A DNA stretch of 64,000 nucleotides from Prochlorococcus sp. MIT 0604 (GTDB lineage: Bacteria; Cyanobacteriota; Cyanobacteriia; PCC-6307; Cyanobiaceae). Position numbers and translations under genes: made by a program. The stretch lies in assembly GCF_000757845.1 (NCBI RefSeq), contig NZ_CP007753.1:1240001-1304000 (forward strand). The letters are read 5' to 3'. Shown here one piece after another: positions 16,211-36,465 of this stretch; the first letter of the stretch is position 1; the number at the start of each line of letters is the position of its first letter. A model generated the notes under the pieces. The model made no database searches. It saw only the letters and a list, made by a program, of their open reading frames with translations, and was not told the origin of the DNA.

Positions 16211-17386
16211 TCATAAATTATAAATAATATCTAATAAATTGTTCATAACATACTCTTGATCTTTCATTTCTAAGCCTTCAAAGACTGGAAGACTTAATGC
16301 TTTTTTTGCATATATTTCACTCATAGGGAAATCTCCCTCCTTAAAACCAAATTTTCTGTAATAAGGTTGTAAATGAATAGGTGAGTAGTGTAATTGTACT
16401 CCAATACTCCTTTTTCTCATCTCATCAAAAACTTTTTTATGGTTATCTTCCGATAGATTTTTTAATAACACAATTACCAAATGGACAGAACTTTTTGTAT
16501 CTTTAGATATTTTCAAAAAAGAAATAACTTCATTATCTGCTATCTTTTTATATTTTTTCAAAATATTATTTCTTTCATCAACAATATCTAAAATTCTTTT
16601 TAACTGACTTGAACCCAAAGATGCCTGTATATCGTTCATCCTATAATTAAAGCCTAAGCTTTGTTGTTCATAGCTCCATGGGCCAAATTTAGACAACTGG
16701 AATTTTGATATATCTTTTGTAATACAGTGAGTTCTTAAAAGTCTCATTCTCTCTGCTAATGCCTTATTGTTTGTAGTAGCTACCCCACCTTCAGCAGTTG
16801 TAATTATTTTTACTGGATGAAAGCTAAAAACACAAATATCACTATAAAAACAATCCCCAATATTTCTATCGCTATAACGTCCTCCTAATGCATGACTAGC
16901 ATCCTCGATAACTTTGAAACCATATTTCATTGAGAGATTTTTAATAGATTTCATATCACAGCTTGTTCCACCAAGGTGAACACAAACAAGTACTTTAGGT
17001 AGAGTACCTTTTTTTTCCGCTTCTTTTAATTTTTTTGTTAACAAGTCTATGCTTATCAAACCATCATCGAGATTGATATCGACAAAATCAATTTTTGCAT
17101 TACAGTATCTTCCACAATTCGCAGAAGCAACAAAAGATGTTGAAGATGTCCAAAGATAGTCTTTTTCTTGAAGATTTAATGATAAACAAGCTATATGAAG
17201 AGCACTAGTACCACTATTTACTGCGATTGAATGATCTACTCCGAGAAAACGACATAAATCATTTTCAAATAATGGTACTTGCTCACCTTGTGTTAAAAAA
17301 TCACTTTTTAAAGTCTTTATAACTGCATTAATGTCATCCTCAGTTATTTTTTGTTTCCCATAGGGAATGTATTTATTTTGATTCAA
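16211..17386 (-). CDS. pseC: PseC-like UDP-4-keto-6-deoxysugar aminotransferase
   Basis: The 391-residue PLP enzyme belongs to the DegT family and most resembles PseC. That enzyme aminates C4 of the 4-keto sugar made by PseB to give UDP-4-amino-4,6-dideoxy-N-acetyl-beta-L-altrosamine. Visible landmarks are AVNSGTSALHIACLSL, VIEDASHALGG (PLP-pyridine aspartate) and VFSFHPVKIITTAEGGVATT (Schiff-base lysine). The start is TTG at 17384-17386, preceded by an AAGAAG ribosome-binding site overlapping the end of pseB; no ATG exists close by. It follows pseB by 8 bp, the classic order for pseudaminic acid synthesis. Confidence 0.85.
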   Translation of the reverse strand: MNQNKYIPYGKQKITEDDINAVIKTLKSDFLTQGEQVPLFENDLCRFLGVDHSIAVNSGTSALHIACLSLNLQEKDYLWTSSTSFVASANCGRYCNAKIDFVDINLDDGLISIDLLTKKLKEAEKKGTLPKVLVCVHLGGTSCDMKSIKNLSMKYGFKVIEDASHALGGRYSDRNIGDCFYSDICVFSFHPVKIITTAEGGVATTNNKALAERMRLLRTHCITKDISKFQLSKFGPWSYEQQSLGFNYRMNDIQASLGSSQLKRILDIVDERNNILKKYKKIADNEVISFLKISKDTKSSVHLVIVLLKNLSEDNHKKVFDEMRKRSIGVQLHYSPIHLQPYYRKFGFKEGDFPMSEIYAKKALSLPVFEGLEMKDQEYVMNNLLDIIYNL

Positions 17387-17394
17387 ATTTCTTC

Positions 17395-18414
17395 TTAAAC
17401 AGGATTAAAATCTTTACTAATGTTGACTTTAATTAAATCTCTAATCTCATCAACGGTTAGGAAATTATCGTTATTAAAGGAATCATACCTAAAATTTTTA
17501 GGCAATGTTTTATATTTTTCATCCATTTCCAAATATATTTTTTTCATTTTGCTATCTGAGGGGAAAATAACGTAGTAATCGCCTATCTCAATAGTATTAG
17601 GTCCATCAGCTTGTGTTATTAACTCCTCATGAATTTTTTCACCGGCTCTTAGCCCTATTATTTCTTTTTGACAATTTGGTCCAATAGCTTCAGCTAAATC
17701 TAATATTCTATAACTAGGTAATTTTGGTACAAATATTTCTCCTCCTAGTGCATTATTCAATGCCCAATAAACCATTTCAATACCCTGTTCTAGGGTAATA
17801 TTAAATCTCGTCATATCTGGATCTGTAATTGGCAATTTACCTGATTTTGCCCTCTCAATGAATAATGGTATTACAGAACCCCTAGAACCCATTACATTGC
17901 CGTATCTTACTATTGAGAATTTGATATTTTTCCCCCCCCTAATATTATTTGCAGCAATAAAAAGTTTATCAGAGCATAATTTGGTTGCACCATAAAGATT
18001 TATAGGTGAGGCTGCTTTGTCAGTGCTTAAAGCAACAAAATTTTCAACATCTGTATCTAAACAAGCCCTTACAAGGTTTTGGGCACCGCCCACATTTGTA
18101 TTTATAAATTCCGAAGGATTATATTCTCCAGCAGGAACATGTTTTAAAGCGGCTGCGTGCACAACAGTATTAATTCCATTTAATGCCATCCTTAATCTCT
18201 CTTTATCTCTTATATCACCTAAGAAAAATCTTAATTGCGGATATTTATCTGGAGGGTAAATACTTTGCATAGCCCATTGTTTCATCTCATCTCTGCTATA
18301 AATAACTACTCTTTTAATATCAGGCATATTTCTAAAAAGGTAAGAAATAAAAGCATTACCAAAACTTCCTGTACCTCCAGTTATTAATAGTGAAATCTCA
18401 TTTTCTTTTTTCAT
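17395..18414 (-). CDS. pseB: PseB-like UDP-GlcNAc 4,6-dehydratase (inverting)
   Basis: A 339-residue SDR enzyme, first gene of the nonulosonate operon. It has the nucleotide-binding GGTGSFGNAF loop at residues 12-21, VVHAAALKHVPAGEYNP near residue 85, a catalytic ALSTDKAASPINLYGATKL region (Ser/Asp-Lys and Tyr-x-x-x-Lys), and MTRFNITLEQGIEMVYWAL near residue 205. This set matches FlaA1/PseB dehydratases, which remove water from UDP-GlcNAc and invert C5. The product feeds the PseC-like enzyme encoded 8 bp downstream. The promoter should lie in 18415-18588, shared with the divergent methyltransferase gene. Confidence 0.9.
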   Translation of the reverse strand: MKKENEISLLITGGTGSFGNAFISYLFRNMPDIKRVVIYSRDEMKQWAMQSIYPPDKYPQLRFFLGDIRDKERLRMALNGINTVVHAAALKHVPAGEYNPSEFINTNVGGAQNLVRACLDTDVENFVALSTDKAASPINLYGATKLCSDKLFIAANNIRGGKNIKFSIVRYGNVMGSRGSVIPLFIERAKSGKLPITDPDMTRFNITLEQGIEMVYWALNNALGGEIFVPKLPSYRILDLAEAIGPNCQKEIIGLRAGEKIHEELITQADGPNTIEIGDYYVIFPSDSKMKKIYLEMDEKYKTLPKNFRYDSFNNDNFLTVDEIRDLIKVNISKDFNPV

Positions 18415-18588: not shown

Positions 18589-19485
18589 ATGGGAGACATA
18601 GAAGATAAGTTTATATTTGAAGTTACAAATTTAAATAAAGGGTTAGAATCTCTTAATTTTAACATTTTTGAATTTATCAATAGCCCTTTAAAAATAAAAT
18701 ACAAAAAAACTACAGAATCATTAATCCACGAATTTGATACTTGTATTTTTAAAGAAATTTATGACCTAATTAAAGATAATAAATCTATTAAACTTGAACA
18801 TGTAGAAAATATAAGAGCAAAAAGAGAATTAAGTTCAAAAAATTATGTTTTTTATAATGGGGAACATTTATTTGTAGAGCAACATTGGGTAAGAGAAAAG
18901 AATATTTATGAATTAAGTATGGGATTAAAATATTTATCAAAAAAAATTAAAATAAACACCATAATAGAATTAGGAACTGGGTATGGATCAAAGATAATTT
19001 CATTAGCTAATTTGAACAACAATAGAAATAAATTCAAATTTAAAGCTTTAGATATTTCAAAGAATGGTTTGTTTTGTTGTAAAGAGTTAGCAAAAAGAGA
19101 AAATTTGATTGTTGAAACAAAAATACAGAACTTCCTAATCAATCCAAGCATTGGAGAATTTGTTGATAAGAATTCAATAATCTTTACTTCTTATAATTTA
19201 CATTATTGGAAAGATTTCAATTTAAATAATATAAAGCAATTTATTCAAGATGGTATTAATGGTGGAATACACATAGAGCCTTGTAGTGATTTATTAGATA
19301 AATTAGAGGATAAGATTTATGCCGCATTGGCTTATAAATATATAAAATTAAATAACTATACTGAAAACATAATGCTTGCTTTTGAACAAGCTCAAAAAGA
19401 AAAAATAATTCATTTAAAAATTTTCCAAGAAGTATGGGGATTTGGATTATTGCCGACTTGGATTTTTATATGGTATAAAAAATAA
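18589..19485 (+). CDS. SAM-dependent methyltransferase (putative sugar methyltransferase)
   Basis: The 298-residue protein has a SAM-binding motif I (NTIIELGTGYGSKIISLANL) at about residues 125-144 and an acidic motif II (KALDISKNG) after it. A later IIFTSYNLHYWKDFN strand fits motif IV of class I methyltransferases. The N-terminal 110 residues, with an AKRELSSKNYVFYNGEHLF segment, are reminiscent of putative sugar O-methyltransferases. It reads away from pseB and is followed 11 bp later by the FAD-like oxidoreductase gene, so those two are probably one operon. The acceptor is unknown but is likely a sugar or glycolipid of this island. Confidence 0.65.
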   Translation: MGDIEDKFIFEVTNLNKGLESLNFNIFEFINSPLKIKYKKTTESLIHEFDTCIFKEIYDLIKDNKSIKLEHVENIRAKRELSSKNYVFYNGEHLFVEQHWVREKNIYELSMGLKYLSKKIKINTIIELGTGYGSKIISLANLNNNRNKFKFKALDISKNGLFCCKELAKRENLIVETKIQNFLINPSIGEFVDKNSIIFTSYNLHYWKDFNLNNIKQFIQDGINGGIHIEPCSDLLDKLEDKIYAALAYKYIKLNNYTENIMLAFEQAQKEKIIHLKIFQEVWGFGLLPTWIFIWYKK

Positions 19486-19496
19486 AATATTTTGAG

Positions 19497-20642
19497 ATGA
19501 TTATGAATACTCAGAATAAAACAAAATATTTTGATAAAATTTACGTGGGGACTGGTCCCATATTGTTTTTTGATGCTATCAATGAAACTTGTAAAGGAAA
19601 CAAAGTTTTATTAATAGATAAATCCGATACTATTGGTGGTGCTTGGAAATTAATAAATATTGATGGAATGAATAATTTAGAAAATGCAGTTCACTATTTA
19701 ATCCCAAATAAAAATGGATATAATTTTTTAAATAAAATTTTAAAAATTAGTTTAATTAGAACTCCAAGAAAATTTTATGCTCAAGAATTACTTAATAACC
19801 ATATTCTTTTGCCAAACAATTTATTTGGAGAAATTTGTAATTCTTTAATTTCCGAATTTAAAAAAGATAAATTTATATTTAAAAATGTCATTTCTAATAT
19901 TTTTAGACCAAAATCTTTTTCAAAATCAAAATATCCAAGAAATGGAAGTAAAACAATAATTATTAGAATGTTGCAATTATCAAAATTAATTAATTTAAAA
20001 ATAAAGTTAAAAACATCAATTGAAAAAATCTACATATCAAAAAATAATCTTTCAAAAGTAAAAACATGTAAAGAAACATTTCTAACTAAAGAAATAATAA
20101 TTTCACATGGTTTTTTACCTATCAAAGATTTCTTTATCGATAAACAAAAAATCAATATAAATAAAAAAAAATTTAGAAGACCATCCTTACATATTGTATT
20201 TAGTCCAAAAAATGAAAATGATATGAAAAAATTAAAATCCTTCGTACAAGTAATTTTTGAAGATAATTTGTTAATAAAATATGTTCATGAAATTTCTCAC
20301 TATATTCCCAAAGAGAACCAAAAGAAAGGAACATATGTAATTGTTGTAGCTTTAAAGCATGACTTGCAAAATGAAAGAAATACTTATGAAAAAATAAAGA
20401 ATGAGTTTCAGAAATATAAGCTAATACCATCAGATAATAATTTAAATAAAATTTTCTATTATTGGCAAGATATTTTTCTTCCTTTATTGCTAACTTCAGA
20501 TCTTAAATATTTAGAATCTCTAAGTAATGGAAAACTTAAAATAATGCTCACAGAAGAATTAAATCGTGGCTTTGGTTTATATTCTCAAGAATGGAAGGAA
20601 TTAAAAAATTTAATTGAAAAATCTCACTTTAGTTATATATGA
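19497..20642 (+). CDS. FAD/NAD(P)-binding oxidoreductase-like protein
   Basis: The 381-residue protein starts with a flavin-type Rossmann motif: KIYVGTGPILFFDAINET (GxGPxxxxxA), a strand ending in an acidic residue (VLLIDKSD), then TIGGAWKLI, the GG doublet typical of FAD oxidoreductases and UDP-galactopyranose-mutase relatives. NAVHYLIPNKNG at residues 64-75 could be a substrate-binding segment. The C-terminal half has no recognised landmarks, and the second dinucleotide motif of NAD(P)H-dependent flavoenzymes is not evident. It follows the methyltransferase gene by 11 bp. The reaction cannot be named. Two in-frame ATGs two codons apart could serve as start. Confidence 0.55.
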   Translation: MIMNTQNKTKYFDKIYVGTGPILFFDAINETCKGNKVLLIDKSDTIGGAWKLINIDGMNNLENAVHYLIPNKNGYNFLNKILKISLIRTPRKFYAQELLNNHILLPNNLFGEICNSLISEFKKDKFIFKNVISNIFRPKSFSKSKYPRNGSKTIIIRMLQLSKLINLKIKLKTSIEKIYISKNNLSKVKTCKETFLTKEIIISHGFLPIKDFFIDKQKININKKKFRRPSLHIVFSPKNENDMKKLKSFVQVIFEDNLLIKYVHEISHYIPKENQKKGTYVIVVALKHDLQNERNTYEKIKNEFQKYKLIPSDNNLNKIFYYWQDIFLPLLLTSDLKYLESLSNGKLKIMLTEELNRGFGLYSQEWKELKNLIEKSHFSYI

Positions 20643-20943: not shown

Positions 20944-21993
20944 TTAAATAAACACATCCCAACTAGTTGGATCCCCAACTTTTATATCCTTTTTAAGAAT
21001 TTTACCAATAATATCTCTTTCAAATTTTGGAGCCAAACCATTACCCGGTCTTATTCTTCTAATATCATCTTTTGTAACAATTTCACCAGCCTTTTTATTT
21101 TTAACAAAATATATTGATCTTCTAAATGATTTACTTTGAGACTCAACAATATCTCTATCAAAGCCTTCCTTACCAAGGGAAAGCCAAGTTTTATAGGTAT
21201 TTTCACAAAGCTTACGAAGTTCGCTAGGTTCTATAGAAAAATCACTATCAGGTCCTTTATCTGAAGAATCAATAGTAAAGTGTTTTTCTATAACTGAGGC
21301 TCCTATGGCTGTTGCAGCAACTGAAATAGTTGTTCCAAGAGTATGATCAGAAAGTCCACTTATTACATTAAAATTACGAGAAATACTTTTTATTAAATTT
21401 AAATTTGATTTCTCAACAGGAGCAGGATAACTGCTGATACAATGTAGAAGAATTATTTGATCATTATTTTCTTGACGCATAGCATCTAGAGCTTCATTAA
21501 TCTCTTTTTCTGAAGACATTCCTGTTGATATGATTACTGGTTTTTGTTTACTAGCAATATATTTTATTAAAGGTATATCTACTAATTCAAAAGATGCAAC
21601 TTTATAGGCAGGTGTATTCAGTTCTTCAAGTAGATCAACTGCAGTTTCATCAAATGGAGTAGAGAATAAAGTGACTCCTAATTCGTTGGCATATGAAAAT
21701 AACTTTTGATGCCACTCATAGGGAGTTTCAGCTAATTTGTATAAATCATATAGTTTAAATCCATCCCATAATCCTCCTTTAATTAGAAACTCCTCATTAT
21801 CACAGTTGATGGTCATAGTATCTGCTGTATAAGTTTGCATTTTTATTGCATCCACCCCACATTCAGATGCTTCCTTAATAGTTTCTAATGCTCTTTCTAT
21901 AGAACCATTATGATTCGCAGACATTTCAGCAATAATATATGGAGGATAATTTAACCCAATCTTTCTGCCATTAATATTTATTTCTTTTACCAT
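20944..21993 (-). CDS. pseI: PseI/NeuB-family nonulosonic acid synthase
   Basis: A 349-residue synthase that condenses a 6-deoxy hexose with phosphoenolpyruvate to form a nine-carbon sugar acid. Typical NeuB-family landmarks are present: PYIIAEMSANHNGSIERALE at residues 17-36, VDAIKMQTYTADTMT, VTLFSTPFDETAVDLLE, KPVIISTGMSS, ILLHCISSYPAP and GLSDHT, plus ASVIEKHFTIDSSDKGPDSD. The C-terminal 60 residues (RRSIYFVKNKKAGEIVTKDD) are the antifreeze-like SAF domain. EMSANHNGS rather than the sialic-acid-type EIGxNHxGD favours the pseudaminic branch. It stands alone on the minus strand but completes the pathway begun by pseB and pseC. Confidence 0.9.
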   Translation of the reverse strand: MVKEININGRKIGLNYPPYIIAEMSANHNGSIERALETIKEASECGVDAIKMQTYTADTMTINCDNEEFLIKGGLWDGFKLYDLYKLAETPYEWHQKLFSYANELGVTLFSTPFDETAVDLLEELNTPAYKVASFELVDIPLIKYIASKQKPVIISTGMSSEKEINEALDAMRQENNDQIILLHCISSYPAPVEKSNLNLIKSISRNFNVISGLSDHTLGTTISVAATAIGASVIEKHFTIDSSDKGPDSDFSIEPSELRKLCENTYKTWLSLGKEGFDRDIVESQSKSFRRSIYFVKNKKAGEIVTKDDIRRIRPGNGLAPKFERDIIGKILKKDIKVGDPTSWDVFI

Positions 21994-22267: not shown

Positions 22268-22948
22268 TTAAAAATTTATTTTTCTAATAATTTGGAAAGC
22301 TTCTGCCATTTTAAGGCCTACTTGATTACCCCTTAGGTTAGCGAGATTTTTTATTCCCTCTAATGATCGTGAATGTGGAAAATCTCTTAATTCTTCTTCA
22401 TAAGCTAGTAAAGATTTTTCTTTATCATCCCATGTATTTGAAATGTCTACAAAAAGATTTGGATAGAATTTTCCTGTTATAAATTCATTACCGAAATCTG
22501 TAGCAGAAGAAATTTCAAATAATCTTATTTCCGAACAAGAATCATTTGGCTGAGGTCTAAATGCTGTTAATACTGCATTTACTACTACCCTGTGATCAAT
22601 ATTTAAATCACCTCCACAATGACTATAAACTAAATTAGGTTGTATCATCTTTTTAGATTTTTCAATTAATTTTATAATCTCCAATAATGGTTCATTATCT
22701 AGCATATTATCTTTAAAGTTAAATCTTTCAAGCCATTTAAATCCAAGCAAATCACTTGCAATATTTGATGAATTTACTCTCTTCAAAATATCTTCTTTAT
22801 TAAATGAATCTCTTGAACCAGTCCCGTCTGTCATTGCAATAACAAATACATCATCTCCTTGATTAATATGTTTTCTGATAGTGCCTCCCATACCAATTGT
22901 TTCATCATCGGGATGCGCTACAACTACAAGAACCCTATTTTTATCCAT
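22268..22948 (-). CDS. PIG-L/LmbE-family deacetylase
   Basis: The 226-residue protein has the zinc-binding start of LmbE/PIG-L enzymes, VLVVVAHPDDETIGMGGTI (AHPDD motif at residues 11-15), and a later VYSHCGGDLNIDHRVV segment giving the third zinc histidine (H-x-x-H). The family removes N-acetyl groups from amino sugars and related compounds. Here it could expose an amine that the nearby formyltransferase or acyltransferases then modify; this is inferred from gene order. Length is normal for the family and the start is a clear ATG. Confidence 0.85.
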   Translation of the reverse strand: MDKNRVLVVVAHPDDETIGMGGTIRKHINQGDDVFVIAMTDGTGSRDSFNKEDILKRVNSSNIASDLLGFKWLERFNFKDNMLDNEPLLEIIKLIEKSKKMIQPNLVYSHCGGDLNIDHRVVVNAVLTAFRPQPNDSCSEIRLFEISSATDFGNEFITGKFYPNLFVDISNTWDDKEKSLLAYEEELRDFPHSRSLEGIKNLANLRGNQVGLKMAEAFQIIRKINF

Positions 22949-23288: not shown

Positions 23289-23996
23289 ATGGAAAATCTT
23301 GATCAATCTTACTTATTAGTAACCATTAGAAAATGGAATATAGAGAAATTCAAAGAAGAAAAAAATAATCTTCCTGGTAAATGGCATCTAATAAATGATC
23401 AAGAGGATTTAACTTTATTAAATGTTCAAAAATATAATCCACGTTATATATTTTTTCCGCATTGGAGCATTAAAGTTCCTTGTGAAATTATTAATAACTA
23501 TGAATGTATATGTTTTCATGAAACAGACTTACCTTTCGGAAGAGGAGGTAGTCCTATCCAGAATCTAATTTCTAATGGATTTAAATCAACAAAAATTTCA
23601 GCATTAAAAATGAATTCTGATTTAGACTCAGGGCCAATATATCTAAAGAAAGACTTATCTTTAGAGGGCATCGCAGAAGAGATTTTCATAAGGGCATCAG
23701 ATATAATTTTTGAAATGATTAGGACAATTATAGAAGAGGAAATTAAACCGATTGAACAAAGAGGAGAAATTACTTATTTCAAAAGAAGAATTCCTGAAGA
23801 TAGTCTTATTCCAAAAGAAATTACAACTTTAAAAGAGCTTTATGACTTTATTAGAATGCTCGATGCCGAAGATTATCCAAAAGCAAATATCTTACACAAT
23901 TCATTCAAATTAGAGATTAAAAATCCAGTTTTAAGATTTAACAGAATAGAGGCTAATATTAATATAAAGTTAAGTGAGCTTAAGGACTTCTCTTAA
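23289..23996 (+). CDS. Formyltransferase-family protein (sugar N-formyltransferase-like)
   Basis: The 235-residue protein resembles the catalytic half of methionyl-tRNA formyltransferase and sugar N-formyltransferases. The key region, CICFHETDLPFGRGGSPIQNL around residues 76-96, corresponds to the family's H-x-S-L-L-P-x-x-R-G-x-x-P-x-x-x-A. MNSDLDSGPIYLKKDLSL at about residues 115-132 matches the D-x-G-x-I segment with the catalytic aspartate. It lacks the C-terminal tRNA-binding domain, so a small-molecule acceptor such as an amino sugar is likely, with N10-formyltetrahydrofolate as donor. Its 3' end overlaps the convergent small gene by 4 bp. HETDLP for the usual HxSLLP is a variation on the motif. 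Confidence 0.75.
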   Translation: MENLDQSYLLVTIRKWNIEKFKEEKNNLPGKWHLINDQEDLTLLNVQKYNPRYIFFPHWSIKVPCEIINNYECICFHETDLPFGRGGSPIQNLISNGFKSTKISALKMNSDLDSGPIYLKKDLSLEGIAEEIFIRASDIIFEMIRTIIEEEIKPIEQRGEITYFKRRIPEDSLIPKEITTLKELYDFIRMLDAEDYPKANILHNSFKLEIKNPVLRFNRIEANINIKLSELKDFS

Positions 23997-24415
23997 ATAA
24001 TATAAGAAATTTGATTATGTTTATAACCAATATTTGCTAAAACCTTATGTAATTTAATATCTCCACTTGGCGTATTAATATAAAAATCTTTTGGAATTAA
24101 TGATTTAATTGGCTTATTAGGTACGAAATTTGATTTTATAAAACTCAATACTCTAGGTATGCCATCTTCATAAAATTTTTCTTTAATATTTATTGAAATA
24201 GAATTATTATCTTGAATATAAAATGTGCCAATAAAAGATTTTTCGCATTTAACTAAAAACCAATTCTTATAAGGTTTTGAAAAAACAAATTCTTTATGTT
24301 CATTTTTGCTTGGCATTTCTATATGGCTTATATTATATTTCCTTTCTGAAAGAAGAGTATATAATACTTCAACATGTTCTTTTGATTGCAAAACTTTAAT
24401 AAATTTATAATCCAT
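23993..24415 (-). CDS. Small GNAT-like protein
   Basis: A 140-residue protein whose middle (YKNWFLVKCEKSFIGTFYIQ then DNNSISINIKEKFYEDGIPR) looks like the beta4-alpha3 core of a GNAT N-acyltransferase, where FIGTFYI would be the splayed strand and the following region the acetyl-CoA loop. The C-terminal half (GDIKLHKVLANIGYKHNQIS) fits the usual N-K-x-x-x-x-x-G-F/Y ending. In a pseudaminic-like cluster such a protein could fill the role of PseH, the UDP-sugar N-acetyltransferase, which is otherwise not seen. The glycine-rich pyrophosphate loop is weak, so the family call is tentative. It overlaps the formyltransferase gene tail to tail by 4 bp. Confidence 0.5.
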   Translation of the reverse strand: MDYKFIKVLQSKEHVEVLYTLLSERKYNISHIEMPSKNEHKEFVFSKPYKNWFLVKCEKSFIGTFYIQDNNSISINIKEKFYEDGIPRVLSFIKSNFVPNKPIKSLIPKDFYINTPSGDIKLHKVLANIGYKHNQISYII

Positions 24416-24496: not shown

Positions 24497-25192
24497 ATGA
24501 GATCTAACATTTTCTTATTAGGTAATTCTCCAGTATTACTAGAATTAATTATTAATCATTTCAATTCAAATGAATTTGCAAATAAAATTTTTGTTCTTGA
24601 AGATGATATTTATAAGGTACAGAATATTAAGAATCTTGAACCGACTTTACTTAAAGTAATTTCTTTTGATGAGGGGCATCAACTAATCTCAAATAAAGAG
24701 AATAATCCTAAATTATATATTGGAGTAAGTTCAACACCAATAAAAAGATTTAATGTTTATGAAAGTTTTACCCAAGAAAATACTACATTTCCTAATATTT
24801 ATCAAAAATCAGCTAAATTATCAAATTATTGCAAGATTTATAAAGGTTCATACTTTGGAGAATATACAACTATCGAACCCAATTCTGAAATAGGTGAATT
24901 TTGTTTTATTCAGAGTCATAGTCATATAGGTCACGATTCAAAAATTGGAAAATTTTCTATACTAGGCGGATCCGTGACTATTAATGGTGGCTGTAAAATT
25001 GAAGATTTTTGCTTAATAGGTTCTGCTGTTACGATTATAAACAATAAAATAATTGGTAAGGGTTCCGTAATTCAAGCAGGAACATGCATAACAAAAGATA
25101 TCCCGCCTTTCAGTTTTGTTCATGGTAACCCTTGTAAGATATTACCAATTGAATTTCTAGGAAAGGATTTTGCAAATATAAAAAAAATTTAA
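24497..25192 (+). CDS. NeuD-family sugar O-acyltransferase
   Basis: The 231-residue protein has an N-terminal Rossmann-like domain (NIFLLGNSPVLLELIINHFN). From about residue 112 it is a left-handed beta-helix built of hexapeptide repeats (IYKGSYFGEYTTIEPNSEIG, then FCFIQSHSHIGHDSKIGKFS, then FCLIGSAVTIINNKIIG). The histidine in HSHIGHDSKIG is the expected catalytic base. It ends KDIPPFSFVHGNPCKILP, the standard C-terminal signature. NeuD/PglD enzymes add acetyl groups to sialic-acid-type sugars or UDP-amino sugars, so this protein probably decorates the island's nonulosonate. It reads in the same direction as the carrier-protein module that starts about 100 bp downstream. Confidence 0.85.
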   Translation: MRSNIFLLGNSPVLLELIINHFNSNEFANKIFVLEDDIYKVQNIKNLEPTLLKVISFDEGHQLISNKENNPKLYIGVSSTPIKRFNVYESFTQENTTFPNIYQKSAKLSNYCKIYKGSYFGEYTTIEPNSEIGEFCFIQSHSHIGHDSKIGKFSILGGSVTINGGCKIEDFCLIGSAVTIINNKIIGKGSVIQAGTCITKDIPPFSFVHGNPCKILPIEFLGKDFANIKKI

Positions 25193-25293
25193 AGTTGATT
25201 AGAAATAATAATAAATTAGATTGATTTGTGATTTTTTTGTTTATGTTTTATATTGTATTTTAAAAAGAATTCTTTATAAATTTGAAATCATTA

Positions 25294-25905
25294 ATGAAAG
25301 ACTTTAAATCAATCTACTTGCCACTGGGAGAACATTTCCTAAGTAACTACGAAGTTGATTTTATTGAAGAATCCTTAAAAAAATTCCCTTTGGAAGATAT
25401 CACTATTGGAGATGCGGGAGAAATAAATAACTGCCAAGTTGGGAGATTAATGGAAGATCAACCCGAAACTAATCCTAAAATATTAAACGAATCTTTATCA
25501 AAACCAATCTTAAAACTTTTTCAAACTTTGAAAGCAAAAAAATTCTTTGGTAAATTTCTTGATAAAAATAAGCCTCAAATAATTAGAAGAAGTCAATTTA
25601 ATCTTCTTGGTGAAGGATCTTTTGTAGGTCGCCATCTTGACATAGATAGCAATCCTAATTATCAAATAGCCGCAGTTCTTCAATTGGGAAGTAAATTTAG
25701 TGGAGGAGAATTTATAGTTTACCCATCAAAAGATTCGGAAATAAAAGATGCCCAAATTATATATCCTGAATACGGTTCAATTACAATATCTTTTTGTAAG
25801 TCTGAACATGAAGTAGGGAAAGTTACATCAGGGACTAGAACATCTTTTGTGAATTTCATATCTAACTATGTAGGTAAAAACAAAAGAAAAAGAATAGTAA
25901 ATTAA
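25294..25905 (+). CDS. 2-oxoglutarate/Fe(II) oxygenase (prolyl 4-hydroxylase-like)
   Basis: About 203 residues. The double-stranded beta-helix iron site is visible: SQFNLLGEGSFVGRHLDIDS supplies the H-x-D pair, and ISFCKSEHEVGKVTSGTRTS supplies the distal histidine followed by the 2-oxoglutarate-binding arginine. The segment LQLGSKFSGGEFIVYP matches the core of P4H-type oxygenases. It would hydroxylate a small molecule, an acyl chain or a peptide. I place the start at the ATG at 25294; a TTG at 25282 would add four residues. It begins the compact plus-strand run that continues with the unknown gene at 25908, 2 bp after its stop. Confidence 0.75.
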   Translation: MKDFKSIYLPLGEHFLSNYEVDFIEESLKKFPLEDITIGDAGEINNCQVGRLMEDQPETNPKILNESLSKPILKLFQTLKAKKFFGKFLDKNKPQIIRRSQFNLLGEGSFVGRHLDIDSNPNYQIAAVLQLGSKFSGGEFIVYPSKDSEIKDAQIIYPEYGSITISFCKSEHEVGKVTSGTRTSFVNFISNYVGKNKRKRIVN

Positions 25906-25907
25906 CA

Positions 25908-26993
25908 TTGGATAAAATCAATCCATATATAAGTAGAACAATTCTGAAATCCGCTTTTTCTGAATCAGATTGCTTCAGTTCATGGATGCGGAGTTATCTT
26001 AGTCCAAAGGAATTTTATTACATTAAAAATAATTGCTTACATAAAATGTCAATCCTAGAGCTTAAAAATTTTCTTTCAGACGCTTTAAAAAGATTTAATA
26101 TTTCATCAGATATACATTTAATTGAATTTATGATTAGAAATAATAATAAACTTAGTCTTATACTTACTTTTATTAGATCTGGATTAATAGGTAAATCTAA
26201 AATTATCGAGAATGAAAAATTTAAACTACTTTTAGATATATTTTCATTTAGGATTATTGAAGATGATAATTTATCAATTGGTAATTTAAATAAATTATCT
26301 TTAAAAAACGACAAAATGAATCACCTTAAAATAGTTGGTCCAGTTTGTCCTGATTATTCATATGAATATACAGATAAGGGTAGATACAGATATACATTTC
26401 AATCAGTAGGAAGTGGAATTGGTTTAGTTGCAAAAAAAGCAATTGATAATTTCAAAAGGATAAAAGAAATATCCAATGATTTAATAAATAATGGCTTAAA
26501 TTTAGAATTTGAAATTCTTGTTGGTGATTTCGAAGCTTCTGAAGAAAATCTTACCGCCTTAAAAGAAAAAAAAACTAATTTTCTTAGCAAGATAAAAAGT
26601 AGTTGTATAAATATTCAAGAAGAATCTTCCATAAAAGCCTATCCTTTTACAGATTTATGCCAAGGATTGGATGGTTGGAATTATCAAATAAGTCAACTGA
26701 AGAACATACATAAAGTTAATAATTTCAATGATCTAAAATATATATTTCCTAAAATAAATCATGATAAAAAATTAATTTCTAGGATACCGCTTTATAAAAA
26801 ATGGTTTGGAAAAGATAAAAACTATAAAGAAATTTTCTTTAATCAATCTTTAGAATATATGCTTATGGGTAATATTATTTATTCAAATTTCTTTGGAGAA
26901 GTTTTTTTATTAGCTTCTGATCATAAAGCAATGAGAGATTATTACTCTTTAATATCTAATATTGATATTATTTCATCATCAACAAGTTACTAA
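25908..26993 (+). CDS. Unknown protein of carrier-protein module
   Basis: I do not recognise this 361-residue protein. The probable start is TTG at 25908; the next in-frame ATG is 25 codons later. The N-terminal 130 residues are helical and charged. A distinct core follows: KIVGPVCPDYSYEY near residue 145, FQSVGSGIGLVAKKAIDNF near 165, and LEFEILVGDFEASEENL near 202. Small-residue turns after strands suggest a nucleotide- or cofactor-binding alpha/beta fold. It is tied to the oxygenase upstream (2 bp) and abuts the luciferase-like monooxygenase downstream (0 bp), so it very likely works in the same pathway. No function should be assigned without structure comparison. Confidence 0.7.
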   Translation: MDKINPYISRTILKSAFSESDCFSSWMRSYLSPKEFYYIKNNCLHKMSILELKNFLSDALKRFNISSDIHLIEFMIRNNNKLSLILTFIRSGLIGKSKIIENEKFKLLLDIFSFRIIEDDNLSIGNLNKLSLKNDKMNHLKIVGPVCPDYSYEYTDKGRYRYTFQSVGSGIGLVAKKAIDNFKRIKEISNDLINNGLNLEFEILVGDFEASEENLTALKEKKTNFLSKIKSSCINIQEESSIKAYPFTDLCQGLDGWNYQISQLKNIHKVNNFNDLKYIFPKINHDKKLISRIPLYKKWFGKDKNYKEIFFNQSLEYMLMGNIIYSNFFGEVFLLASDHKAMRDYYSLISNIDIISSSTSY

Positions 26994-27938
26994 ATGAAGC
27001 AAATTGGCCTTTTTGTAATACCAATAAAAGTTGATGAATCAATATCAACATATAATGACTACATTGACTTTTTAGTAGAGGCTGAGCAAAAAGGGTATAC
27101 GCATGTATATATTGGAGAACATTTAACTGATGAAAAAGAAGATATTCAATCAAGTCTAATTTTTGCTTCAGCTTTGCTAGCTAGAACGACTAAGATAAAT
27201 GTCTGTTTTTGCGTATTACCACTTCCTCATTATGAAATTAAGCTATTGGTTAAACAATTAGAAGATATATATAGATTATCTTGTGGAAGAATTCAAATTG
27301 GATTTAGTCAAGGAGCGCTTAAAAGTGATGCAGAATATTTAAATTTTGATCATTTTAAAAGAGGCGAAATTTTTCAACAAAAATTAGATTTATTTATGAA
27401 TGAAATAAAAAAGTCTAAATACTTAAAAAAATTGTTTAATGAAAGTTATTTCTCTACACTTTTGTCTCCTATTCCATTGAAAGCATCCAATCTATTTGAA
27501 AATGGCTATTCTGCAATAACTTCAAATTTTGTAAATGAAGTTCATTGGGATAATCACATCACTTGTTTAAACAAGAATAAAATTCATACAAAAAATGCAT
27601 CAAAATGGCACCTCTCTCTTAATCTCGTCCCTTATGAAAATTTAGATGAGAGAAGTCTAAATTCTATTAAGGAAAGTCTCCTATATATTTATGAAAAATT
27701 AAGCTCTTGTAAATTGAACGTTATGCTTAAAAATAAAAATGACATTCTTGAAGAATTAAATATAAAAGATAGATTGCTAAAAGAAATGACTTATAGTGAA
27801 TTTCCGAAAAAATATTTTCAACTAAAAAATAAATATAAAAATCAATTTAGTTATCCAATAATAAATCTCTTCGACTGCATAAAAGATTTAGGATATACTA
27901 ATTTCATATTAGACCTGCCATCAAATGGAAATTTCTAA
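26994..27938 (+). CDS. Luciferase-like flavin-dependent monooxygenase
   Basis: The 314-residue protein matches the bacterial-luciferase-like monooxygenase fold: KQIGLFVIPIKVDE at the N-terminus, YTHVYIGEHLTDEKEDIQSS (the family's W/Y-x-x-E-H segment), SALLARTTKINVCFCVLPLP, and then RLSCGRIQIGFSQGALKSDA, resembling the phosphate-binding R-x-x-x-G-x-G region. Such enzymes use reduced FMN to hydroxylate or oxidise substrates, and in peptide or polyketide clusters often act on carrier-bound acyl groups. Its ATG directly follows the stop of the unknown gene, and its last 14 bp overlap the carrier-protein gene, so co-translation is strongly implied. Confidence 0.75.
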   Translation: MKQIGLFVIPIKVDESISTYNDYIDFLVEAEQKGYTHVYIGEHLTDEKEDIQSSLIFASALLARTTKINVCFCVLPLPHYEIKLLVKQLEDIYRLSCGRIQIGFSQGALKSDAEYLNFDHFKRGEIFQQKLDLFMNEIKKSKYLKKLFNESYFSTLLSPIPLKASNLFENGYSAITSNFVNEVHWDNHITCLNKNKIHTKNASKWHLSLNLVPYENLDERSLNSIKESLLYIYEKLSSCKLNVMLKNKNDILEELNIKDRLLKEMTYSEFPKKYFQLKNKYKNQFSYPIINLFDCIKDLGYTNFILDLPSNGNF

Positions 27939-28182
27939 GGAAATTTTACTCAACTACATAAAAACAAACTTATCTAAAAGTAATCCAGATATTGATTTAT
28001 CTACATTATCTTATGAAACTGATTTATCTAGTATTGGGGTTGAATCTATTGTAATTATTTCCCTCCTTTCACAAATTGAAGATGAATTTAAAATCAATAT
28101 ATCTATAGATAGTCTCGAAAAGAATAATTTTATAATTTCAGTTGGGTCAATTACAGGGAGTATTCTAAATGAGAGACCTTAG
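27925..28182 (+). CDS. Acyl/peptidyl carrier protein
   Basis: An 85-residue acidic helical protein of normal carrier-protein size. The phosphopantetheine site is Ser41 in LSSIGVESIVIISLLSQIED; V-E-S replaces the usual D-S-L but the surrounding helix-II pattern is intact, and IEDEFKINISID is the standard following segment. It overlaps both neighbours by 14 bp (monooxygenase upstream, adenylating enzyme downstream). It is a dedicated carrier rather than the fatty-acid AcpP, which normally carries GxDSLD. A phosphopantetheinyl transferase is encoded 1.6 kb downstream. Confidence 0.85.
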   Translation: MEISKEILLNYIKTNLSKSNPDIDLSTLSYETDLSSIGVESIVIISLLSQIEDEFKINISIDSLEKNNFIISVGSITGSILNERP

Positions 28183-29683
28183 AGAAGACTTCAAGGAACG
28201 CGTTGAAAAAGGTAATAAAAAATTATTTTCTACAATTAATAGTAAAGAATTTTCAAGCAAAGATGTTAAATTTTTCTTTTTCAGTATTTATAGAAAAATA
28301 AAGCATAATCAAAAAAATATTGTTTTAATTTGTGACTCATCTATTGAATCTTATATACTTTCTGTTTTTTTGATTTTTAGTAAATACGAAGTTTACTTTT
28401 TGAATGCTTCAACTTATAAAAATTTCCATTTAATAGATAATCCTTTAGTTATAGTTTTAAATCAAGAAATGTATGAACTAATTTATAAGGAAAAAGAATA
28501 TGAAGGAATAATTATCTCGCCTTTTATAGAGGAATTTCAATATTTTTCTCACCCAAGTTTTGATATTGATAGTATTTCTAAAGAATTTTACGAAAATCGG
28601 TATATTGGAAAATCAATATTTTGTAGTTCTGGTAGTACTGGAATCCCAAAAATGATTCCACTTTCTTATGATCAGATTAATTCTTGTTATAACAATGTAT
28701 ATTTTGGATTTTTAAATTCCCTTGTTTTTAAAAATATAGTAAGCGTTCATGACACTAGTTTTGTCATAATACTACCGTTTATATTTTGTCTTTCTTCAAG
28801 AAATAATTCTCAGATCATAGCTACTCAATCTAAGCCAAAAATAAATTCCTTAGTGTTACTTTCTTCCAACATAAACAATTTTGATGATCATATTTTTATT
28901 TCAGTACCATCTGTTTTTAGACTTTTAAGAAAATTTGTAAAAGATAAATTTAAAAAATTCGTTAATGGAGGCCACATCATAACTTGCGGTGAACCACTAG
29001 ATAAGAAATTAGCTATTGAGATTAATTCTTTCAATCCAATATCTTTTTATAATTTATACGGTTCAACTGAAGTTGCCCCATGGATATTAAAACTTAATAT
29101 AAAAAATTATTTGGCGAGTTTTTATGATGTTAATCAAATCCCAACCATTCTCCCAGTAGGGGGGAATTTACCAAATGTTGAATTAAAAATTTCAGATAGT
29201 TCTGAATTATTAGTTTGTTGTAAATCTGTTTTTAGTGGTTATGAAGGGCAAACTAATGAATCTATATTTAAAACAATTGAGAAAAAAGTTTTCTATAAGA
29301 CTGGAGATCAATTTAAATTAATAGAAAACCTATATTTTTGTAAAGGAAGACTAAATAGCTCTTTAAAAATTGCAGGGGCTTTTGTAAATCCTATTTTCTT
29401 AGAATTTGAAATCAAAGCCAATACAACAGTTGAAAATATATTGTTAATACCAAGTATGCTGGAAGCTAAATTAAAAGTAGTAATATTTGTTAGTGAGGAA
29501 AATAAACAGGATCAGAATGAATTAAATCAAATTTATTCTTTAATAAGAAAAATTATTAATGATAATTCTTCAACAAATATACCAACAGAATTAATTATAA
29601 ATAATGATTCCATAGAATTCCTAAAAAGTGGAAAGATAAACAGGAACTACTATAAAGAAAAATACGTAATTAAAAGTCTTTAG
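28169..29683 (+). CDS. AMP-forming acyl/amino-acyl ligase (adenylation enzyme)
   Basis: A 504-residue ANL-superfamily enzyme. The P-loop-like motif FCSSGSTGIPKMIPLS lies around residue 152, the adenine-binding YNLYGSTEVAPW around 293, KTGDQF around 375 holds the ribose-contacting aspartate, and the C-terminal catalytic lysine is in LKSGKINRNY. It should activate a carboxylic acid with ATP and load it onto the carrier protein encoded immediately upstream. The predicted substrate pocket does not let me choose between an amino acid and an acyl acid. There is no condensation or thioesterase domain, so the activated group is probably transferred to a sugar or small molecule. Confidence 0.85.
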   Translation: MRDLREDFKERVEKGNKKLFSTINSKEFSSKDVKFFFFSIYRKIKHNQKNIVLICDSSIESYILSVFLIFSKYEVYFLNASTYKNFHLIDNPLVIVLNQEMYELIYKEKEYEGIIISPFIEEFQYFSHPSFDIDSISKEFYENRYIGKSIFCSSGSTGIPKMIPLSYDQINSCYNNVYFGFLNSLVFKNIVSVHDTSFVIILPFIFCLSSRNNSQIIATQSKPKINSLVLLSSNINNFDDHIFISVPSVFRLLRKFVKDKFKKFVNGGHIITCGEPLDKKLAIEINSFNPISFYNLYGSTEVAPWILKLNIKNYLASFYDVNQIPTILPVGGNLPNVELKISDSSELLVCCKSVFSGYEGQTNESIFKTIEKKVFYKTGDQFKLIENLYFCKGRLNSSLKIAGAFVNPIFLEFEIKANTTVENILLIPSMLEAKLKVVIFVSEENKQDQNELNQIYSLIRKIINDNSSTNIPTELIINNDSIEFLKSGKINRNYYKEKYVIKSL

Positions 29684-29760
29684 TAAATTTAGAGAAAATT
29701 AAGAAAACATGTTTTTATTTGTAAACCTAAATAAAATTAATTTAATAATTAAATTTTTTA

Positions 29761-30429
29761 GTGGAAACAATTAATTGTCCATCAAAAAATAGTGAAAAAA
29801 ATATAGATATTGCACTCTGGTTATTTGATTTTAATTCATCCTTAAAACCAATTTCTTCCAAAGAGCATCAGATAGCTAAAAGATTACCTGAAAAAAGAGC
29901 TTACCAATTTAAATATTCAAGAGGATATATAAGAAATTCATTATCAACATTATTTAATATTGAACCTTTACAGATACCTATCAAAGCTTTACCAGGAAGA
30001 CCTCCTCTTTTACCAAAAAAAATGGGTTATTTGAGCCTAAGTCATTCTGAAAATGCACTTTTAATTGGTTGGTCAAGATACAAAATAGGAGTAGATATTG
30101 AGCAAAGAAACAGATTATTTCCCTTCAAAGCCATAGCAAATAAATATTTTTCTAAACAAGAGAAAGAATATTTAAGTCTTTCAGAAGAGAATTGTTGTCA
30201 TGAAAAAACTCTTGATTTATGGATTAAAAAAGAAGCTGCAATAAAATGGCAAGAAGGAAAACTTTTAAGAGATCTTCCTAACTGGATTTGCTCATTAGAA
30301 AAATCTAAGGCATACCATTTAAAGATGAAGAAAACAATTAATGTACACTCCTTTAGATTTAGTAACTTGTTAATATCAGTAGCCTCTCAGAGGGAAATAT
30401 ATAAAAATTTGATTATTTGCAAATCCTAA
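29761..30429 (+). CDS. Sfp/HetI-like 4'-phosphopantetheinyl transferase
   Basis: The 222-residue protein has the two Sfp-type signatures: IGVDIEQRN around residue 110, with the metal-binding Asp and Glu, and LWIKKEAAIKWQEGK around residue 160 (the WxxKEA motif). GYLSLSHSENALLIGWS supplies the conserved histidine for CoA. GTG is the start. It converts apo-carrier proteins to the holo form, and its place after the carrier protein and adenylation genes suggests it serves that pathway. It could also be the cell's general transferase for fatty-acid carrier protein; the context cannot exclude this. Confidence 0.85.
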   Translation: METINCPSKNSEKNIDIALWLFDFNSSLKPISSKEHQIAKRLPEKRAYQFKYSRGYIRNSLSTLFNIEPLQIPIKALPGRPPLLPKKMGYLSLSHSENALLIGWSRYKIGVDIEQRNRLFPFKAIANKYFSKQEKEYLSLSEENCCHEKTLDLWIKKEAAIKWQEGKLLRDLPNWICSLEKSKAYHLKMKKTINVHSFRFSNLLISVASQREIYKNLIICKS

Positions 30430-32069: not shown

Positions 32070-32963
32070 TTATATACCTTTAATAAAAGACTGCTCTTTT
32101 TTATTTAAATTCAAATGAAATTTAGTTTTTATAGTTGAATATCTTTTGCAAAATTCTTCATCATTTAAATCACTTAATCTAACTTGAAGATTAAATCTTG
32201 CTTTGCCTGAATTATTAGGAACTGACCTATGAATTAAATCCATATCAAAAATTAAAATATCAGAGAAATCTAAATATAAGACTTTTGTTTTAAAATTATT
32301 AATAATATTTGTGGGTACTTTATAAGAAATCCCCTTTATTTCTTTCTCTCCAATTGTGGCAGTTTCTTGATCAAAGTTATGTTCTACCATACCATCCTTA
32401 TGTGATTGGATGGCGACTTCTAAAGTACCTCCTGAATTTAAATCTCCAGATTGTAAAGGTACATAAATAGTTAAACTTTTTTGGGAACCTTGATTATATG
32501 GATAATCTTGATGCCAAGGCAAAAGCATCGCAATTTCTTTATTATCACAATCGCCAAGATATCTTTCAGATTCGCCTGGCAAATCTATTCTCATTATTTG
32601 ATCATTAATTTGAAGTAGCAGATTATCTGAATTCATATATCCTTTTGCAATTGAATTTATTTCATTATCAGATGCAACTTCAATTGTACTAAGGATTGAT
32701 CTAGCGGTATCGTAAAACTTTCCAATTAATGATCTTTTTTTAATTCCTATCTTTTTAGTAATTTCATGAAGATCTGTAGTGATTGGATCAAATTCAAATT
32801 CGGTATTCTTTGTTAAACCATATAATAATAATTTCATATCTGTTGTAATTTTTTCAACTATTAGATTTTTATTTTTTAAAATAGTAAAGCCGTTATTATT
32901 TAGATTTTCTAGATGAAATTTTAAGTTGCTTTTATTCAATATTTCAATTTCTTTTTTCATCAT
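32070..32963 (-). CDS. Phytanoyl-CoA dioxygenase-like 2OG-Fe(II) oxygenase
   Basis: The 297-residue protein carries the PhyH-type iron site: LLPWHQDYPYNQGSQKSLTI gives the H-x-D pair at about residues 148-150, and DILIFDMDLIHRSVPNNSGK gives the distal histidine, with the 2-oxoglutarate-binding arginine in ARFNLQVRLSDL. LQSGDLNSGGTLEVAIQSH matches the middle of the family fold. In surface-glycan clusters these enzymes hydroxylate sugars or lipids; the actual substrate is unknown. It may be transcribed together with the small frame and second dioxygenase to its right on the same strand. Confidence 0.75.
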   Translation of the reverse strand: MMKKEIEILNKSNLKFHLENLNNNGFTILKNKNLIVEKITTDMKLLLYGLTKNTEFEFDPITTDLHEITKKIGIKKRSLIGKFYDTARSILSTIEVASDNEINSIAKGYMNSDNLLLQINDQIMRIDLPGESERYLGDCDNKEIAMLLPWHQDYPYNQGSQKSLTIYVPLQSGDLNSGGTLEVAIQSHKDGMVEHNFDQETATIGEKEIKGISYKVPTNIINNFKTKVLYLDFSDILIFDMDLIHRSVPNNSGKARFNLQVRLSDLNDEEFCKRYSTIKTKFHLNLNKKEQSFIKGI

Positions 32964-33343: not shown

Positions 33344-34189
33344 TTAATTTTTAATATTTAGGAATTGAGATATTTTTTTATTAGCATAATTTATATCACC
33401 CTTGGCAGACATACCCTCTTTGGGAGACCACCTTTCCGAAACAGTAGCACCATACAAATATTTTTCTCTATCACTCAAATTTCTTATCATTTTTTCATCC
33501 ATCGAGGCTAACATATTAAATTCTTGTCTTATATACCATCTGGTAAAGGTCATTATCAATGCCCATCTAGTAGATGAATTTTGATTCTCTAAAGCCCCAT
33601 GTAAAAGTCGTCCGTCCCAACAGACTGCTTGTCCTGGTTTAAGCTCAATTGGAAGTAATTCTGTATTTTCAATAATCTTTGAATCAGTAATATTATGGGT
33701 TCTAGGTTTCAAAATAGTACAACCATTTTTAATATTAGTTTCTTGTAATGGGATCAACCATTGTATCCAGGTTGGTTCTTTTGAATTACTAATTGGATTT
33801 CTGTCATCTGTATGAATATTTAACGCCTCTTGAGCAGATCTTGCTGTATATTGTCCGATTATGTGATTACTTTTTATATTATTAGGAAGTTTATAAAATT
33901 TATCATTAAGCAAATTTGAGTTTATATTATCAATAAAATTATTAATAGGTAAATCTCTAAAATGATTACCAAAATTATGCATATTAAAATGATGTAATGT
34001 TTTGATTGGTAATCTTGTTAATGGATCTATTTGGGAATACTCAACTGGAATTTTAATTAGTTCTTGAAATAGTAAATCAATTAATTTTTTTGTAAAAATA
34101 TTATTTATTACAGCAAATCCATCATTAATTATATTTTCAATTATGCAGGGAATATTTTTAATATCAGCATTAAAAATTTTATAATTCAT
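33344..34189 (-). CDS. Phytanoyl-CoA dioxygenase-like 2OG-Fe(II) oxygenase
   Basis: A PhyH-family protein of 281 residues from the ATG at 34189; a TTG six codons upstream gives 287. The iron site is LNIHTDDRNP (H-x-D), then LKPGQAVCWDGRLLHGALEN with the distal histidine, and STRWALIMTFTRWYIRQEF with the arginine. It is only distantly similar to the dioxygenase at 32070, so this is not a recent duplication. In this island it may hydroxylate a sugar, an acyl chain or a membrane lipid. Just beyond its start the tRNA-Ala core repeat begins, marking the end of the polysaccharide island. Confidence 0.75.
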   Translation of the reverse strand: MNYKIFNADIKNIPCIIENIINDGFAVINNIFTKKLIDLLFQELIKIPVEYSQIDPLTRLPIKTLHHFNMHNFGNHFRDLPINNFIDNINSNLLNDKFYKLPNNIKSNHIIGQYTARSAQEALNIHTDDRNPISNSKEPTWIQWLIPLQETNIKNGCTILKPRTHNITDSKIIENTELLPIELKPGQAVCWDGRLLHGALENQNSSTRWALIMTFTRWYIRQEFNMLASMDEKMIRNLSDREKYLYGATVSERWSPKEGMSAKGDINYANKKISQFLNIKN

Positions 34190-34320
34190 TTTGTTTATAA
34201 GATACAAATAACAAAAATTTTAATTAAATAATTATTCTATAGTATACGACGCAAATAGTTTTTTATATTATATTTTCGGATATTGATAAAACTATAATTA
34301 AACATTTTCCGTCTTAAAAA

Positions 34321-36070: not shown

Positions 36071-36332
36071 AAAAAATTTTTTTACAATAAAATCAAATCT
36101 TGACTAATTTATAGTTAATTCCTCCATTGAGTTTTTATTATTTAGTAAATAAAGTAACATATTTAAATGTAAAGCCTTACAACAGACAGCTAATAAATTC
36201 TTAGAAAATTGAATTTTTAAAGATTACTCATTGCAGAGAACACATAATCATCCATATTTATTCCTTATTATCCATAACTTTTATTGTAGATTATTAATCC
36301 AACCAATTAATATAACTAGTTAAAAATCTTGA

Positions 36333-36405
36333 TGGAGCCAAGCGGACTCGAACCGCTGACCCCCTGCATGCCATGCAGGTGCTCTACCAGCTGAGCTATG
36401 GCCCC
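36333..36405 (-). tRNA. tRNA-Ala (GGC)
   Basis: A complete 73-nt cloverleaf on the minus strand. The acceptor stem begins GGGGCCA and pairs with TGGCTCC plus discriminator A. The D-arm contains AGCTCAGCTGGTAGAGC, the anticodon stem-loop is CCTGC-ATGGCAT-GCAGG with anticodon GGC, and the T-arm contains GGTTCGAGTCC. CCA is not encoded. Its 3' half is duplicated at 34321-34363, and a tyrosine recombinase starts 137 bp from its 5' end, so the gene is an integration hotspot. Confidence 0.97.
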
Positions 36406-36465
36406 AGATCGTTGTAATAGCAGTCATATCAATTAATCCTAGCATTTTCAAATTAAATCCCTGAT

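Follow-up and report, generated by a model that had tools for sequence, protein, structure and literature searches.

The window analysed here is a stretch of 64,000 nucleotides from Prochlorococcus sp. MIT 0604 (contig NZ_CP007753.1, positions 1,240,001 to 1,304,000), and our subject is a cassette of six consecutive plus-strand genes within it that includes a free-standing acyl carrier protein (ACP). An earlier reading of this DNA from its letters alone, hereafter the sequence-only reading, had listed these genes and proposed that they form a dedicated route to an acyl group on a pseudaminic-type sugar. The six genes were confirmed at the positions given below; Pfam names five of their products, and the remaining one, a protein of 361 residues that we call U361, has no family there:

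25282..25905, plus strand: 2-oxoglutarate- and Fe(II)-dependent (2OG-Fe(II)) oxygenase, 207 aa (Pfam 2OG-FeII_Oxy_3, 1.2e-8; HxD...H...R intact)
25908..26993, plus strand: U361, 361 aa (without a Pfam or NCBIfam family)
26994..27938, plus strand: luciferase-like flavin monooxygenase (LLM), 314 aa (Pfam Bac_luciferase, 1.4e-11)
27925..28182, plus strand: free-standing ACP, 85 aa (Pfam PP-binding, 1.3e-7; Ser41 in motif GVES)
28169..29683, plus strand: AMP-forming ligase, 504 aa (Pfam AMP-binding, 9.5e-15; nearest to DltA, far under the DltA cut-off)
29761..30429, plus strand: accessory 4'-phosphopantetheinyl transferase (PPTase), 222 aa (Pfam ACPS, 2e-10)

The spacing of the genes had been taken as proof that they act together, and this argument stands for five of them (25282-29683), which are tightly coupled: 2 bp lie between the oxygenase and U361 genes and none between those of U361 and the LLM, and the carrier gene overlaps both of its neighbours, the LLM and ligase genes, by 14 bp. 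It is weaker for the PPTase gene, which follows that of the ligase after 77 bp and is thus more loosely attached. As had been stated, condensation and thioesterase domains are absent from the Pfam matches of the six proteins. The host genome gives two PF00550 matches, of which the ACP is one, and the serine proposed to be loaded, Ser41, does lie in a GVES motif. The complete set was seen in no second genome among those searched, and we found no description of this exact gene set in the literature searched, in agreement with the earlier claim that it has no described counterpart.

The PPTase of the cassette is an additional copy and not the housekeeping one. We had considered it the sole, and hence the housekeeping, copy, and rejected this when a protein search found what a PF01648 search had missed, namely a second PPTase in the host genome (G000:C1:102328-102930) that is 38% identical to the cassette copy and stands in a gene order common to five congener loci.

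Among solved structures, the ligase is nearest to DltA (E 1.3e-14), but it scores only 77.1 bits against the DltA model TIGR01734, whose equivalog cut-off is 559.85, and by score it is not a DltA. The cassette resembles DltA/DltC D-alanylation in that ligase and carrier are separate proteins, and differs from it in having oxygenases. The Asp that anchors the alpha-amino group, which we take to be Asp235 of PheA and Asp197 of DltA, is matched by Asp in alignments with 3dhv and 3fcc, by a gap with 3e7w, and by Val with 7vhv and in both MAFFT alignments; an earlier conclusion that the ligase keeps this residue, and so loads an alpha-amino acid, was withdrawn because the alignments disagree at that position. 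A search of 179 other congeners at E <= 1e-10 gave no match to the ligase, and plasmid searches with the ligase and the LLM returned only distant members of broad families.

The cassette lies in a nonulosonate island, as had been proposed, with PseC, PseB and PseI above the curated cut-offs of the models used for the pse core (TIGR03588, TIGR03589 and TIGR03586). By the family assignment of these three proteins, the sugar made by the island is predicted to be of the pseudaminic type. The genes upstream of the cassette are as follows:

16211-17386, minus strand: PseC, above curated cut-off
17395-18414, minus strand: PseB, above curated cut-off
18589-20642, plus strand: two open reading frames (ORFs) between PseB and PseI
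20944-21993, minus strand: PseI, above curated cut-off
22268-22948, minus strand: BshB1/LmbE-like deacetylase, a recurrent neighbour in pse modules
23289-23996, plus strand: formyltransferase-like protein, a recurrent neighbour in pse modules
23993-24415, minus strand: 140-aa protein, a recurrent neighbour in pse modules
24497..25192, plus strand: hexapeptide-repeat acyltransferase of the NeuD/PglB/VioB family, 231 aa (TIGR03570, 119.7 bits; cut-off 160.8)

The sequence-only reading had used the deacetylase, the formyltransferase and the 140-aa protein, the last of these as a GNAT-like acyltransferase, to support its proposal, and this part of the argument fell. Pfam does not match the 140-aa protein to GNAT, and a search of 186 genomes of the genus found it in 15, among them the host and the congeners G184 and G166. 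We compared the pse loci of the other 12 (9-13 kb each): PseI is nearby in 11, and a formyltransferase (at least 41% identical to that of the window) and a deacetylase (at least 50%) are present in 6, and BLAST found no match in any of the 12 to the PPTase, ACP, ligase, LLM, U361, oxygenase or NeuD-like protein. The three genes (for the deacetylase, the formyltransferase and the 140-aa protein) thus form a pse module that recurs in congeners, also where the carrier cassette is absent, and what is special here is the cassette together with the NeuD-like gene. A dedicated transferase role for the 140-aa protein was withdrawn for the same reason. In three congeners this protein forms a fusion with a GNAT-like part (L117:5870-6748, L118:6128-6994 and L119:5978-6838) and in one to a formyltransferase-like part (L122:6061-7194), which suggests that these parts act jointly.

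The NeuD-like gene ends 89 bp 5' of the oxygenase gene, on the same strand; its product, which also scores 69 bits to an LpxA-like model, is probably the best candidate for acyl delivery, a role that we propose because VioB, which shares the family name, is paired with an ACP in the viosamine island described below.

Several further features of the surroundings were recorded. Upstream, at 13244-15283 (minus strand), a cytidylyltransferase is fused to a class III aminotransferase, and versions 58-59% identical occur in the congener pse loci L117 and L119. Downstream, neither Pfam nor NCBIfam matches an adjacent 394-aa ORF at 30517, and two further ORFs at 32070-32963 and 33344-34207 (both minus strand) give weak matches to a model for sporadic carbohydrate cluster 2OG-Fe(II) oxygenases. 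Per 2 kb, the GC content is 19-30% in the first 36 kb of the window versus 24-35% in the remainder, and a tRNA-Ala gene (36331-36406, minus strand) stands where it climbs from about 23% to 33%, possibly marking the border of the AT-rich island.

Accessory PPTases in congeners provide most of the evidence on what such a cassette might serve. At E <= 1e-40, a limit that may conceal more distant accessory copies, the window PPTase was matched in 16 of 266 genomes of the genus, namely its own, five housekeeping copies assigned by gene order (L079, L080, L084, L086 and L090) and ten accessory ones (10 of 265 other congeners). For eight of these ten, a sugar-nucleotide, pse or glycosyltransferase gene was confirmed by Pfam or BLAST in the stretch read: pse genes in G184 and G166, and other such genes in G025, G182, G180, G1360, G105 and G050. 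Five of the ten adjoin KASIII (L053, L054, L081, L083 and L085); Pfam confirmed KASIII in both L053 and L081 and also the reductase and ACP of the former, and an ACP was recognised in three of the five, in L053 through Pfam and in L054 and L083 because their proteins resemble that of L053 and one another. The KASIII, ACP and accessory PPTase genes of these three span L053:15008-17720, L054:11523-13456 and L083:3438-5386. ACP-like ORFs of 80 aa adjoining the KASIII of L085 and L096 gave no PP-binding match, and a GNAT label for a 347-aa protein of L053 was withdrawn, as it has no Pfam match.

Two of these congeners carry pse genes like those of the window. In G184, PseI and PseC are 77% and 56% identical to ours and a homologue of the 140-aa protein is present (38%), and the set found there (L092:8865-20000 and L093:1-5671) comprises a PhyH-type oxygenase, a PPTase, a formyltransferase, an Antibiotic_NAT-type N-acyltransferase, a glyoxalase-like protein, an ACP, an AMP-ligase and a 4HBT protein. 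In G166, the accessory PPTase directly precedes homologues of PseB (64%), PseC (54%) and PseI (47%); among these pse genes stands an ORF that we named cytidylyltransferase-like by eye.

Similar arrangements are known in other bacteria. In Vibrio cholerae O1, for instance, the tetronate genes rfbK and rfbL encode an ACP and a ligase for the N-acyl group on perosamine; we know of no oxygenase set for them. The viosamine island of Pseudomonas syringae pv. tabaci (vioA, vioB, vioS, vioR, acp, vioM and vioT) likewise has a free-standing ACP and a VioB-class transferase in a sugar island, and the acyl group destined for an amino sugar is inferred there to be assembled on the carrier (PMC3927599). 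The acyl group is made there by a KASIII and a reductase, in contrast to the ligase, oxygenase, flavin monooxygenase and U361 of our cassette, among whose six genes Pfam finds no KASIII or ketoreductase; the acceptor is dTDP-viosamine, and the part of that paper on the island mentions no accessory PPTase (PMC3927599). Polar-flagellum pse islands of Aeromonas group II carry an ACP, a 3-oxoacyl-ACP reductase and an AMP-dependent synthetase between the pse genes; they add luxE and luxC, the function suggested there is a lipid-like component, and the passage describing them mentions no 2OG-Fe oxygenase, LLM or U361 (PMC7874193). Given these two precedents, the kind of system is already known, and the present gene set is a variant of it. 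By analogy, the parallel cassettes in congeners and in print support a reading in which a carrier-bound group ends on a glycan.

We therefore lean, with some caution, toward a cassette of the plug-in type, built around a carrier protein, that would ready an oxidised acyl group for a sugar of the nonulosonate island. After priming of the 85-aa ACP by the PPTase of the cassette, the ligase would adenylate a small carboxylic acid and load it on the phosphopantetheine arm of the carrier. The tethered group would then be modified by the 2OG-Fe oxygenase, which presumably oxidises it, by the flavin monooxygenase and by U361, perhaps an enzyme with a Rossmann fold like that of class I aminoacyl-tRNA synthetases. 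Finally, the NeuD/VioB-family transferase encoded 89 bp upstream might move the acyl group to an amino group of an activated sugar, probably a pseudaminic-type precursor. We infer the order of these steps, the sugar acceptor and the transferase role of the NeuD-like protein; what survives of the original proposal of a dedicated acyl route draws on the sugar genes near most congener accessory PPTases and on the parallel in G184.

Several observations weigh against this reading. The NeuD-like protein scores under the TIGR03570 cut-off, and the members of the NeuD family that we know of use acetyl-CoA. The PPTase gene stands apart from the five coupled genes, and the set is known from a single genome, so that its gene order cannot be tested by conservation. 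The congener evidence also has weak points: G029 and G056 have no confirmed sugar gene in the stretch read, and in G105 and G050 only a glycosyltransferase was confirmed, among ORFs unlike a polysaccharide island; in G105 it is about 5.6 kb from the PPTase, with a carbamoyltransferase between. In the PPTase tree, where the window copy is placed with a support of 0.45, the accessory PPTases are not one clade, and that of G184, which we counted as accessory, groups with six housekeeping sequences (0.995). No close PseB was found in the 40 kb of G184 read, and the G184 ligase and oxygenase have no BLAST match to those of the window, which makes this a second, differently built carrier cassette, parallel to ours and not the same. 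Finally, the nearest named relatives of the oxygenase and U361 are in a nonribosomal peptide synthetase (NRPS) cluster.

That cluster lies on a plasmid of Massilia forsythiae, where a U361 homologue (31%, E 4e-28) is found three genes downstream of an oxygenase homologue (44%) that shares the ligand residues H118, D120, H176 and R186. The U361 homologue is followed by an A-T protein and a C-A-T-TE protein and then by transporters and a PPTase, and no polysaccharide gene is annotated in the 40 kb seen of the cluster. The sole PDB sequence match of the oxygenase is 6n1f (E 2.3e-33), and three other plasmid relatives were found: one in Piscirickettsia that adjoins an aminotransferase, one in Streptomyces that adjoins ORFs similar to the Massilia NRPS, and one in Rhizobium (L037:8193-16523) whose neighbours carry the annotations peptide ligase, desaturase and gamma-glutamylcyclotransferase. 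The Massilia plasmid (L002:9780-33198) has annotated ATP-grasp, sterol desaturase family and gamma-glutamylcyclotransferase family genes; BLAST finds homology between the Rhizobium and Massilia loci only in the oxygenase, and the two perhaps share an antimetabolite theme.

The strongest alternative is thus that the cassette makes a small secreted or intracellular natural product, such as a modified amino acid or antimetabolite, and would owe its place in the glycan island solely to the tendency of islands to gather foreign genes. The joint presence of U361 and the oxygenase in the Massilia cluster speaks for it, as do the aminotransferase, NRPS-like and peptide ligase neighbours of the other oxygenase relatives. 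The six genes, however, include no condensation or thioesterase domain and no transporter, and for eight of the ten accessory PPTases of congeners the stretch read includes a sugar or glycosyltransferase gene. The sequence-only reading had named the recurrence of its genes beside an NRPS and away from polysaccharide genes as evidence that would count against it, and this was found in part, in Massilia and for two of the six (the oxygenase and U361). We consider a natural product a serious possibility, albeit one that we would not expect to be borne out. That the cassette is a non-functional remnant or a chance assembly seems most improbable: among the genomes searched, only the host has U361 (of 200 of the genus) and the ligase (of 180), but all six frames are open, the motifs are intact and the overlaps are preserved.

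U361 is not an orphan; going by its homologues, the family occurs in three distant groups. Besides Massilia, apparently (judging from coordinates) the same one that gave the only match among 349 Burkholderiales genomes, a pattern scan and a phylum search yielded five full-length Patescibacteria homologues, including one from Andersenbacteria (E 4e-20), with matches in 6 of 239 Patescibacteria genomes, one of them weak and partial. None was found in 199 other congeners, in 385 other cyanobacterial genomes, in a phage search or in two viral-contig scans, and a further viral pattern match has an in-frame stop. A first scan of genome contigs (90 stretches) gave no relative, and a second (20 loci) gave one (L017). 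In all five Patescibacteria loci (L017:1475-4407, L028, L029, L030 and L031), the gene adjoins cupin-like and M24-peptidase-like ORFs in two different orders (two ORFs of each kind were checked with Pfam), and the other five cassette genes have no match in the 4-8 kb of each locus. The seven sequences have no Pfam family, and they share invariant columns at CPDY (147-150), Tyr160, Thr163-Phe164, GxGxGL (168-173), GDFEA (206-210), Gln313, Glu316-Tyr317, Asp338 and the C-terminal Tyr361, which in Massilia is followed by one further residue.

Structure prediction, which had been suggested, gave leads on the fold of U361 at low confidence. Two AlphaFold models, for the window protein and the Andersenbacteria homologue, were built from one shared two-sequence alignment and are not independent; the mean predicted local distance difference test (pLDDT) score is 40.7 for one model and 41.2 for the other, and in one of them residues 221-360 reach 52-76 per block of ten. 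Foldseek gave neither of them a match under E 0.001. For the Andersenbacteria model, tyrosyl-tRNA synthetase (TyrRS) came first (E 1.1e-3), the isonitrile synthase PIsnA (9dh4) seventh (4.5e-3) and cyclodipeptide synthases (CDPSs) from rank 8, and for the window model, CDPSs came first (5ocd, E 0.033) and PvcA (3e59) seventh (E 0.11). The Andersenbacteria model aligns with TyrRS 1u7x at Z 9.8 (rmsd 4.1, 170 residues) and with CDPS 5mlq at Z 8.9; models that lack a clear match usually reach Z 7-8. As a lead, a fold like that of TyrRS, CDPSs and isonitrile synthases seems likely for U361; families that the fold searches did not list are not thereby excluded. The Rossmann fold possibly held in common with PvcA/IsnA isonitrile synthases and CDPSs comes without sequence-profile similarity, and searches of PDB sequences with two family members (P0001 and A5) found nothing, the latter to E 10.

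What U361 might do with such a fold is a guess, for which we consider two reactions. In one, it would be a CDPS-like acyltransferase in which Cys147 takes an aminoacyl group from a tRNA or carrier and passes it to another carrier-bound group. CDPSs have the Rossmann fold of TyrRS and TrpRS, use an acyl-Ser and have the catalytic residues Ser37, Tyr178, Glu182 and Tyr202, according to the part of the source that treats them (PMC7566563). The top ranks and Z scores of TyrRS and CDPSs fit this reaction, and Cys147, located where a predicted strand ends, is invariant in all seven members. The models, however, are of low confidence, the CDPS family is absent from the Pfam matches of the members to E 5, and the placement of the Cys for the Ser is a conjecture from strand order and not from structural alignment, which leaves this reaction rather unlikely.

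In the other reaction, U361 would resemble the isonitrile synthases PvcA and IsnA and be a partner of the 2OG-Fe oxygenase, so that the product would be an isonitrile or a derivative. PvcA is partnered with a 2OG-Fe enzyme, PvcB, and the genes of U361 and the oxygenase co-occur in two unrelated hosts; PIsnA and PvcA each stand at rank 7 for one model. Nevertheless, none of the seven members matches DIT1_PvcA (PF05141), the window oxygenase is matched in none of the five Patescibacteria loci, and both models have a mean pLDDT near 41. Membership of the PvcA family by sequence was rejected when hhalign found nothing with one PvcA sequence or, locally and globally, with nine (probability 0.1%, E 0.51), the seed having come from the single match in a search of 158 Gammaproteobacteria. 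We regard this reaction as improbable, slightly more so than the CDPS-like one.

A broader speculation, of which we are doubtful, is that U361 is the founding member of a new enzyme family with the TyrRS/CDPS/isonitrile-synthase fold and, with the 2OG-Fe enzyme, makes an isonitrile-like or aminoacyl-transfer group on a carrier, which would end on a surface nonulosonate here, on a nonribosomal peptide in Massilia and in a product involving the cupin and M24-peptidase proteins in Patescibacteria. In any case, U361 represents a protein family with short invariant motifs that has neither a Pfam nor an NCBIfam model and appears in three distant groups. In picocyanobacteria, phage attachment and grazing are believed to be controlled by the glycans of the cell surface. 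If our preferred reading of the cassette as a source of an oxidised acyl group for a sugar of the island is true, some strains would widen their sugar chemistry by swapping in whole carrier-protein modules that bring their own priming enzymes.

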